A DNA stretch of 48,203 nt, taken from positions 1 to 48,203 of the forward strand of contig JACRLB010000013.1 in the NCBI GenBank assembly GCA_016235445.1, in the 5' to 3' direction. Position numbers and translations under genes: made by a program. The stretch comes from Chloroflexota bacterium (GTDB taxonomy: Bacteria; Chloroflexota; Anaerolineae; Anaerolineales; Villigracilaceae). Below, in pieces: positions 20,630 to 22,422 of this stretch (its first letter is position 1; every line of letters begins with the position of its first letter). The notes beneath the pieces were generated by a model. That model ran no database searches. It worked only from the letters and a program-made list of their open reading frames with translations, and was not told where the DNA came from.

Positions 20630-21841
20630 TTACACAAACACCCTCGGCACGCGCGCGCTGATACTCGTCATCACTTCATATTCATTCGTGCCCGCCCAAT
20701 CGGCAAGCTCCTCCGCCGCAATACCGCCGCCAAGCAAAGTCACCTCATCCCCCACCTTCACATCGTCCCCGCCCACATTCACCATGAACTGATCCATGCA
20801 AATGCGCCCCACCTGCGGATATGATTTCCCGTTGATGACGACCCGCGCTTGATTCGTCATGCGGCGGAAATATCCATCCGCATAGCCGCAGGGGACGGTG
20901 ACGACCCGCTTCGGACTCCCTTCAACCTGCCACAACGACCCATAGCTGACACTCCGCCCGGGCATCGTCACCTTGCTATAAGCCACTTGTGATTTCCAGG
21001 TAAGTGCGGGCTTTACATCTACTTTCTTTTCAATGTCACGCGCGGGGTACACGCCATAAAATAAAACACCGGGCCGCACCAGATCCAAATGCGCTTCGGG
21101 CAGATTCAAAATCCCACCCGAATTGCAGACGTGGCGCATGGGCATCGGCAGGCTGTTCTTTTCGTAGAAACGCAGTACTTCCTGAAAGCGTTCGAGTTGG
21201 ACTCTGGAGTCAACAATGTCATTGCGAGGGCGCTCTTGCACTTCGCCCGAAGCAATCTCATCCTCAATTGGAGATTGCTCACCTGCACTGGCGTGCGGCG
21301 CAAGTGTCGGCGGAACAAGCATCCGCCTCGCAATGACGGGGCTTATCTCTGAATTTGCCAAATGAGTATAAATCCCTTCCACCTCCAGGCGCTTATACGC
21401 AAGGGATTTTTGGAGAAATTCCTCGGCTTCGTATTCGTGAAGGCCCACCCGCTCCATGCCTGTGTCGATCTTCAAGTGGATTTTGAGTCGCTTACGGGTG
21501 GATTCTGCCAATTGATCGGCGGCAGTTAACAGGTCAAAGGAAGAGGCGGTGAGGGTTAAGTCATGCTCAAAAAATAATGGCAACTGGTCAATGAAAATCC
21601 CGCCTGCAACGAGAATCGGTTTGGTGATGCCAAGTGCGCGCAGTTGAATGGCTTCCTCCACCAGCGCGACGCCGAAATAATCCACGAAGGGTTCGATGAA
21701 AGGCGCAACGCCTTCGATGCCATGCCCATACGCATTGGCTTTGACCATTGTCATCACTTTCGCGGGCGCAACATGCGCGCGGATGGCTTCGATATTTTGT
21801 TTGAGTTGGTTGAGGTTGATTTCGAGATAGGTTGGCCGCAT
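20630..21841 (-). CDS. alr: Alanine racemase with in-frame repeat insertion
   Basis: The protein is 403 aa, against about 360-380 for the family. It interconverts L- and D-alanine with PLP, feeding peptidoglycan synthesis. PLP lysine is K34 in MVKANAYGHG; the catalytic tyrosine region is GRSVSYGSLW; CGYADGY and RICMDQFMVNVG close the C-terminal domain. Residues 169-208 (V169 to D208) are encoded by a 120-bp palindromic element and have no counterpart in the family; removing them leaves 363 aa. The insertion falls between THLANSE and QLERFQEVL, after the barrel strand that ends THLA, likely a surface loop. ATG 21841 has only a weak GGA upstream. A strong terminator-like hairpin lies 17 nt before it. 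Confidence 0.92.
   Translation of the reverse strand: MRPTYLEINLNQLKQNIEAIRAHVAPAKVMTMVKANAYGHGIEGVAPFIEPFVDYFGVALVEEAIQLRALGITKPILVAGGIFIDQLPLFFEHDLTLTASSFDLLTAADQLAESTRKRLKIHLKIDTGMERVGLHEYEAEEFLQKSLAYKRLEVEGIYTHLANSEISPVIARRMLVPPTLAPHASAGEQSPIEDEIASGEVQERPRNDIVDSRVQLERFQEVLRFYEKNSLPMPMRHVCNSGGILNLPEAHLDLVRPGVLFYGVYPARDIEKKVDVKPALTWKSQVAYSKVTMPGRSVSYGSLWQVEGSPKRVVTVPCGYADGYFRRMTNQARVVINGKSYPQVGRICMDQFMVNVGGDDVKVGDEVTLLGGGIAAEELADWAGTNEYEVMTSISARVPRVFV
21218..21337. repeat. 120-bp palindromic element inside alr
   Basis: Perfect 12-bp arms GTCATTGCGAGG (21218-21229) and inverse CCTCGCAATGAC (21326-21337). Inner hairpin AGCAATCTC (21251-21259) and GAGATTGCT (21271-21279). Beyond this lies a unit from TCACCTGCACT (21279) to GCAAGTGTCG (21309), shared with the level-3 unit at 18876-18918. 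Length is exactly 40 codons and its outer base coincides with a codon boundary. GTCATTGCGAGG-type repeats are common between genes in environmental bacteria; here it is inside a gene. Confidence 0.88.
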
Positions 21842-21857
21842 GACGTTTCCATGAAAA

Positions 21858-21893
21858 AAAATAAGTGGACGGCTTTCGCCGTCCACTTATTTT
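21858..21893 (-). terminator. Strong hairpin with U-run directly before alr
   Basis: Perfect 16-bp stem (21858-21873 with 21878-21893; inner part AAGTGGACGGC/GCCGTCCACTT, loop GAAA on the minus strand) followed on the minus strand by a run of eight T including stem bases. It sits 16 nt after the DUF1761 gene stop, as a factor-independent terminator should, but ends only 17 nt before the alr ATG. Confidence 0.85.
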
Positions 21894-21908: not shown

Positions 21909-22331
21909 TTAACGCCATGCGCCCAGAATGGCGCCAAACAAAATGAAGTTGACAAGATGGTTGCCCACTTCAATGGCCCATATTTTTAATCCGTGGCCTG
22001 CAAAGAGTTTGTTGACCAGATATGTGGGCGCGACAAAGCCGAGCCAGAGCATAAAGCCAGCGGTTGCGCCAGAAGCAAGGCTCGCGCCGCCGCTCAGGCT
22101 GCCCATGGCTGTGACCAGCAGGGACATAAACACGGCCTGGACAAATGACGCGAGCACGGTCAATGCCCAGGTCATGCCCATGTTTTCCATGCCGGGTTGT
22201 TCGCGGCCTCCCCCAACAACCTTCCACCAGGCGGGAAAGAAAGTCTTTGGGTTGTACCAAAGCGACCCGCTCACCATGCTGACCACAACGCAGGCAACAA
22301 CAGCCAGCCAGTTAATTGAACTAAAATCCAT
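21909..22331 (-). CDS. DUF1761 family membrane protein
   Basis: The protein is 140 aa with four membrane spans. It has the family features as I know them: INWLAVVACVVVSMVSGSLWYNPKTFFPAWWKVVG at the start (the GxLWYxP pattern), a central GGASLASGATAGFMLWLGFVAPT, and a C-terminal INxVNFILFGAILGAW-like end (NHLVNFILFGAILGAWR). Function is unknown. ATG 22331 has a GGAGG site 5 nt upstream; four codons further out there is another ATG without such a site. A strong terminator follows. Confidence 0.82.
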   Translation of the reverse strand: MDFSSINWLAVVACVVVSMVSGSLWYNPKTFFPAWWKVVGGGREQPGMENMGMTWALTVLASFVQAVFMSLLVTAMGSLSGGASLASGATAGFMLWLGFVAPTYLVNKLFAGHGLKIWAIEVGNHLVNFILFGAILGAWR

Positions 22332-22422
22332 TTCAGCCTCCATTTCTAAAGTTAATCGGCACGCGCCAATCTTGTAAAGATTACAACCCGAATATTTGTT
22401 CTAAGATACGGGAAGAGATGGG

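Follow-up and report, generated by a model that had tools for sequence, protein, structure and literature searches.

A dispersed palindromic repeat in frame within alanine racemase of a Chloroflexota bacterium: a probable passenger in a tolerant loop

What is a 120-bp palindrome doing inside the reading frame of alanine racemase, and how does it come to be there? Protein-coding palindromes are best known from Rickettsia, and the alr gene of the window (the whole 48,203-nt stretch that was analysed, contig JACRLB010000013.1 of assembly GCA_016235445.1) carries one in a genome that a preliminary description had taken as probably Chloroflexota. The host assignment agrees with the closest named relatives of alr, which come from Anaerolineales/Chloroflexi assemblies.

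The alr gene occupies 20630..21841 (stop included) on the minus strand and encodes an alanine racemase of 403 aa, as identified by Pfam, TIGR00492 (342.6 bits against an NCBIfam cut-off of 168), and similarity to solved racemases. The frame 21886..20630 (-) is open and would yield 418 aa if started at GTG, and similarity to solved alanine racemases begins at the ATG at 21841, which gives the 403-aa protein. A start at the GTG at 21886 is also unlikely because of what looks like a terminator, a perfect 16-bp inverted repeat with a 4-nt loop and outer A/T runs at 21858-21893, between the frame 21909-22343 (-) and the alr ATG. The element begins in phase with the codons (21886-21337 = 549 = 3 x 183) and contributes 40 of them, residues 169-208, without which Alr is 363 aa long (403-40); open-frame arithmetic bears out both the in-frame insertion and the protein length proposed beforehand. 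Pfam Ala_racemase_N, at 23-281 of the 418-aa frame, spans the element and is followed by Ala_racemase_C, while the invariant columns of 42 aligned racemases all lie outside the insert.

An AlphaFold model of Alr computed with this 42-racemase alignment has a mean pLDDT of 79.6, and among solved structures it is matched best by alanine racemases and by racemases related to them (4y2w, Z 34.7, rmsd 2.9, 342 aligned, with others tied). The longest stretch with pLDDT below 50 covers residues 174-205; other such stretches are 131-136, 164-171, and 393-397, and low confidence is therefore not specific to the insert. The predicted racemase fold is intact, with most of the insert modeled at low confidence. 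In the alignment with the 5irp chain sequence, the insert comes after the residue that pairs with Asp174, a region that presumably lines the substrate entry.

The element itself spans 21218-21337 of the window, and an inverted-repeat search recovers the perfect 12-bp terminal arms described earlier (12-nt ends, 100% complementary, with 96 nt between them). On the alr (minus) strand, the arm at the 5′ end of the insert (21326..21337) is GTC ATT GCG AGG, read V-I-A-R, and that at the 3′ end (21218..21229) is CCT CGC AAT GAC, read P-R-N-D. A C precedes the 5′ arm on this strand to give CGTC, and the opposite end of the element gives TGTC. Further inside lie an inverted repeat, AGCAATCTC / GAGATTGCT, at 21251..21279 (no strand assigned; halves 21251-21259 and 21271-21279, within the alr-strand codons E-Q-S ... 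E-I-A) and a 27-bp unit at 21280..21306 (+) that starts with CACCTGC and ends with GCAAGTG. Two repeats make up the window copy, with the 27-bp one nested inside the larger element; at 120 bp and with several helices, this compound falls outside the 20-40 bp of REP units. The alr strand of the element folds at -57.6 kcal/mol (z -5.4), a value equaled by none of 200 shuffles. The window contains no exact arm copy beyond these two, matches with at most two mismatches number 6 against 4.9 expected, and Rfam gives no match at gathering score.

That the stretch is a repeat becomes clear at the genome scale. In the 4.13-Mb genome, 64 exact copies of the 12-mer arm stand against one for the reversed control, and the preliminary description's expectation of further copies thus holds: the element is a dispersed palindromic repeat of this genome. 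The 64 arms mark 52 places, and most paired copies measure ~90-120 bp; with the 120-bp sequence as query, at least 61 genome matches at E <=1 were found (40 of 124 first-look candidates scored). The 27-bp unit has 7 exact copies in the genome, the window one included (control 0), stands free in several copies (L020-L023, L028), and is found in 13 of the 41 genus genomes; the alr loop of G019 holds it the other way round. Among these 41 sampled genomes (2.7-5.8 Mb), 40 have the exact arm, with a maximum of 234 in G019. In a phylum sample of 301 genomes, at least one arm copy occurs in 82, and because many of these hold just one, the single-copy matches may be due to chance. The largest count, 448, comes from another family of the phylum, four genomes of which (G265, G331, G296, and G147) have 448, 245, 73, and 40 exact 12-mer matches. 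A search of a plasmid collection returned a single partial match, to a Rhizobium plasmid (28% of the query, E 0.3).

Copies in frame within other genes were sought among the places with an exact arm, where all 19 spanning frames of at least 150 aa were scanned with Pfam and 10 of these also with NCBIfam. At five of the 52 places, the repeat lies in frame inside a profile-matched protein with profile support on both sides: alr, a 699-aa MoeA/PBP fusion, a 4-hydroxyproline epimerase, a geranylgeranyl-reductase-like protein, and a class IV aminotransferase. A sixth, AllH-like frame (L016), in which the AllH profile matches on one side only, is a probable in-frame copy. At L009 (cysteine synthase-like) and L063, the profile begins past the repeat, which therefore lies upstream of the gene. 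Elsewhere in the genome the repeat is mostly found outside recognizable genes, in keeping with the initial view of it.

Do relatives carry the element at the same position? For alr, moeA, and the aminotransferase, 30 fetched loci apiece supplied the loops; the epimerase and the reductase supplied 27 of 30 and 28 of 30, the remainder being distant paralogues; genus genomes with a match number 36 of 37 for alr and 40 of 41 for both moeA and the aminotransferase, some of them to distant paralogues only. The 145 orthologous loops of the five genes comprise 45 with the element (at least 2 of 4 motifs), 5 with one motif, 64 long loops of other content, and 31 short ones. The 45 are distributed as 12 in alr, 7 in moeA, 14 in the epimerase, 5 in the reductase, and 7 in the aminotransferase. 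Both flanks stand in the same frame in 144 loops, and these readable loops contain no stop, while their multiple-of-three lengths follow by construction. The exception, L166 (G017:C1:1208259-1209231), is a 4-hydroxyproline epimerase split at the slot into two reading frames; it was scored as short in the loop classes and for the species tree, and excluded from the tree shuffles and the frame/stop check, which leaves 30 short loops among the 144.

Insertions of at least 8 residues concentrate in these loops. Rows with such insertions in the slot versus elsewhere number 14 vs 0 for alr, 12 vs 0 for the reductase, 15 vs 1 for the epimerase, and 14 vs 1 for the aminotransferase; moeA has 16 in the slot and 7 and 1 at two other places. 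In every one of these genes, a single loop takes most of the large insertions seen in the genus, and in two genes it takes them all. At the larger of the other moeA places, alignment column 107, 7 of 30 rows carry 8-19 extra residues.

In alr, 14 of the 30 genus loci, the window copy included, hold the element or a one-motif remnant, and the versions and frames differ. Many relatives have a loop of only ~9-21 residues, so that a diverged 40-residue segment common to all close relatives, once considered as a possible outcome, is not what is seen; in distant relatives, the loop has ~10 residues of the DAADLSSAKL type. A survey of named alr loci, with 78 of 80 parsed and the loop truncated by the pattern in 22 of these, added element-bearing loops (L264, L268). 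One-motif matches in alr are L056, L274, and L300, and the loops of L280 and L289 look by eye like remnants. The picture of a single fresh insertion in alr fails on these counts: several versions share the loop, four more conserved genes of the same genome hold in-frame copies, and the 120 bp are themselves a compound of two repeats.

The slots also receive other sequences. In the epimerase slot of G033 and G006 sits a GGGAGAGGGG hairpin unrelated to the element, and a pattern made from it (at most 3 mismatches) finds 41 places in G033 and 13 in the window's genome (G000), with none for the control. Altogether, 23 long or one-motif loops, including these two, match outside their own gene set at E <=0.05, many of them weakly, within the 1.27 Mb of fetched stretches covered. 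Some of the 64 long other loops therefore appear to be repeats too; for most, a repeat origin is not established. When 54 long occupants were folded, z was below -2 in 18, compared with 10 of 214 control windows from the same genes. Small hairpins with a common AGCAAGCT core occupy the alr slots of L044 (G011), L045 (G003), and L049 (G015), where the arms have changed yet stay complementary, as if the palindrome were maintained while its arms change.

Comparison with the sister genome G031 reveals change within a slot. In moeA, the G031 slot relative to that of G000 contains the same element plus exactly 27 bp (nine codons), a clean nested insertion in frame. The two moeA elements are alike at 84 of 96 bases, against 87-88% in the flanks, as plain inheritance predicts. 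The alr slots of the two genomes share 82 of 109 aligned bases, with flanks at 91-94%, and the alr slot of G000 agrees with a copy of its own genome (L003) at 101 of 117 bases, helped by a similar nested unit. In the epimerase, the G000 slot is equally close to the G001 slot (99/111) and to its best own-genome copy (97/114); for the sister pair, the right flank (0.38) is unusable, the G031 gene being cut by the contig end.

On FastTree gene trees built with the slot removed from the alignments, the minimum number of changes between element and non-element is 7 for alr, 7 for moeA, 9 for the epimerase, 5 for the reductase, and 5 for the aminotransferase. Shuffled labels reach the observed count in 592 (moeA), 664 (epimerase), and 403 (reductase) of 1000 trials. 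Phylogenetic signal is present in alr and the aminotransferase, in which 34 and 35 of 1000 shuffles reach the count (71 and 3 of 1000 in three-state shuffles). Genomes with three or more of the five genes, 30 of the 41, make up the concatenated species tree; on it, the numbers are 150 for alr, 660 for moeA, 110 for the epimerase, 1000 for the reductase, and 152 for the aminotransferase, and none of the five genes differs from the shuffles at 5% in the element/non-element comparison.

The 5′ arm keeps to one frame wherever it is readable in moeA (7 rows), the epimerase (14), the aminotransferase (7), and the reductase (2), and the offset of the element is constant in moeA and the epimerase. Only alr has the 5′ arm in two frames, with two frames at each end. 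The 43 readable 5′ arms comprise 18 VIA, 25 SLR, and no HCE, whereas outside genes HCE is open in 35 of 68 orientations versus 31 and 30 for the other two frames. HCE is thus equally open outside genes, but the independent events are too few, and selection on the arm frame is not claimed. Coding adaptation of the element was likewise set aside: 110 of 228 frames are open in 38 paired copies, against 102.3 (sd 6.5) in shuffles.

The reading that best accommodates these data, and a probable one, is that the alr stretch is a non-autonomous REP/MITE-like repeat residing in a tolerant loop and translated as a disordered passenger, and that the loop is a long-lived slot with turnover. A copy of the repeat would have come to sit just past the THLANSE strand, at a site that loop tolerance would explain. 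Most likely, the element was inserted, or copied, into the loop and selection retained in-frame, stop-free versions; stops are absent from all readable loops although about half of the element's frames are open. The 40 residues are taken to be a translated, disordered passenger because the net insertion is frame-keeping and stop-free; the peptide would be made, the enzyme would remain active, and the insert would be disordered in the cell. Loop content would then turn over by insertion, nesting of small repeats, probably exchange with other copies in the genome, and in-frame decay, and single loops of at least four more enzymes would behave in the same way. A wider generalization is possible but tentative: single loops of housekeeping enzymes may be lasting slots in which unrelated repeats are inserted, nested, and swapped in frame, so that the genome's pool of repeats would rewrite these loops at a much higher rate than the remaining protein changes. 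The repeat is presumably moved in trans by an enzyme. The search for a mobilizer covered the Y1 transposases: a Y1-transposase domain is present in 35 of 37 genomes, and an element copy in 3 of the 29 Y1 stretches examined, a neighborhood that lends no support to a RAYT/Y1 transposase as the mobilizer. One diverged copy (L095 1940-2060, G000:C11) does have a 553-codon frame nearby, whose Y1-transposase match is ~140 bp away.

Turnover of slot content is evident from the comparisons above. As to its mode, parsimony cannot separate gain from loss, and constant frame and offset fit one founding insertion per gene with losses as well as they fit repeated insertion. Each slot may go back to one founding insertion in its gene, with exchange, nesting, and decay afterwards. 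A stricter version, in which each gene received one ancient insertion in the genus ancestor that was inherited vertically and all variety reflects loss, decay, and divergence with no new insertions, is rather unlikely. It would account for the single 5′ frame in four genes and the constant offset in two of them, for the alr remnants, both one-motif and by eye, and for moeA elements that diverge between the sisters at about the flank rate. It accords poorly with the unrelated hairpin in the G033 epimerase slot and its many near copies in that genome, the clean 27-bp difference between the sisters, the two frames of the alr element at each end, and the scatter of moeA, epimerase, and reductase states, which resembles that of shuffled labels.

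The inserts could instead be kept for a function, either as mRNA hairpins that pace co-translational folding or as loop peptides that tune the enzyme. The recurrence of hairpins at one place despite sequences that differ by species would suit this, as would the altered substrate affinity of a guanylate kinase that bears a Rickettsia palindromic element (RPE), reported in PMC2229807. The proposal is nevertheless improbable: many species manage with a short loop, the element is a hairpin wherever it is found, most of the alr insert lacks order in the model, and sequences are often unrelated from species to species. Removal of the insert from the RNA, or its skipping by the ribosome, would also suit the strong hairpin and would keep the repeat out of the protein, but neither requires the shared frame of the flanks in 144 of 145 loops or the lack of stops, and this possibility is very slight. 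Most of the genomes are fragmented assemblies, which raises the question of assembly or binning artefacts in metagenome-assembled genomes. Such an origin is barely credible given that G026, a genome in a single contig, carries the element in three of the genes (alr, moeA, and the epimerase), that G032, in four contigs, has an epimerase copy as well as a one-motif match in alr, that all 144 readable loops are stop-free, and that many separate named assemblies again have alr loops with the element. The passenger reading thus remains the preferred one.

Several known systems share features with the element. RPEs are described in PMC2229807 as 105-146 bp long with 12-bp terminal inverted repeats and long stem-loops, with intergenic copies and copies that keep the frame in 19 reading frames, many of which encode conserved proteins; the RPE-bearing guanylate kinase mentioned above is active. 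The likeness noted in the preliminary description stands for size, 12-bp ends, stem-loops (fold z -5.4), and in-frame residence in some conserved genes of a multi-copy repeat. The differences are a Chloroflexota host (genomes of 2.7-5.8 Mb) instead of Rickettsia and the use of one loop per gene, common to many species, by more than one kind of repeat; the comparison with RPEs is at the level of their descriptions. The element appears to work like an RPE, a resemblance that does not establish membership.

T. roseum is a member of the Chloroflexota. A REP survey (PMC3733652) mentions a GTAG family in this species, and for CGTC repeats it gives five phyla among which Chloroflexi is absent. According to the same source, CGTC-type REPs include RPE-4 and RPE-6 and are apparently without a dedicated transposase, and intragenic REPs occur in several species, with two Xanthomonas species having one at about the same site in recB. 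The present repeat shares with CGTC-tagged REPs the dispersed palindromes, some of them intragenic, and the CGTC at one end of the window element; it differs in that most paired copies are ~90-120 bp as opposed to 20-40 bp (PMC3733652) and in that same-loop occupancy here extends to five genes across a genus. MITEs (ERIC, Correia, and others) are, according to PMC2229807, short non-autonomous elements with inverted repeats, and some contribute open frames that are fused to genes. Terminal inverted repeats are likewise present in the window element; no transposase was tied to it among the Y1 stretches examined, and the short loops are too divergent from the occupied ones to define an empty site and, with it, any target duplication. 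Judging by their stated subjects, other accounts deal with nematomorph coding palindromes (PMC6649704), Coxiella MITEs (PMC5896051), MITEs in review (PMC10969869), and stem-loop surveys (PMC1590033, PMC2267715). Among the matches listed in the open-licence literature, none concerned a genus in which unrelated repeats refill a set of loops, and searches with the repeat letters led, among the matches listed, to other subjects by title or opening of the abstract. The kind of phenomenon (coding palindromes, intragenic REPs) is already known, and the loop used by multiple families is the notable part.

The genus, a Chloroflexota group of ordinary genome sizes, provides, in this sample, up to 30 natural alleles for each of five genes, among them short, occupied, nested, and decayed forms. 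This allele set makes it testable whether repeat-derived peptides are neutral passengers and how REP-like elements that have no known transposase move. It also carries a warning for annotation, since orthologues that differ by 30-45 residues can owe the difference to repeat DNA.

In G021, a one-contig sample (400 kb of 4.13 Mb) contains 15 element clusters at no more than one mismatch, one of which (L244) looks like an in-frame copy in a prolyl-oligopeptidase-like gene, named by eye from its sequence. At L017 (1578-1600), an ATG within the arm GCAATGAC is in frame with ~160 codons downstream, and the repeat may supply the start codon there.
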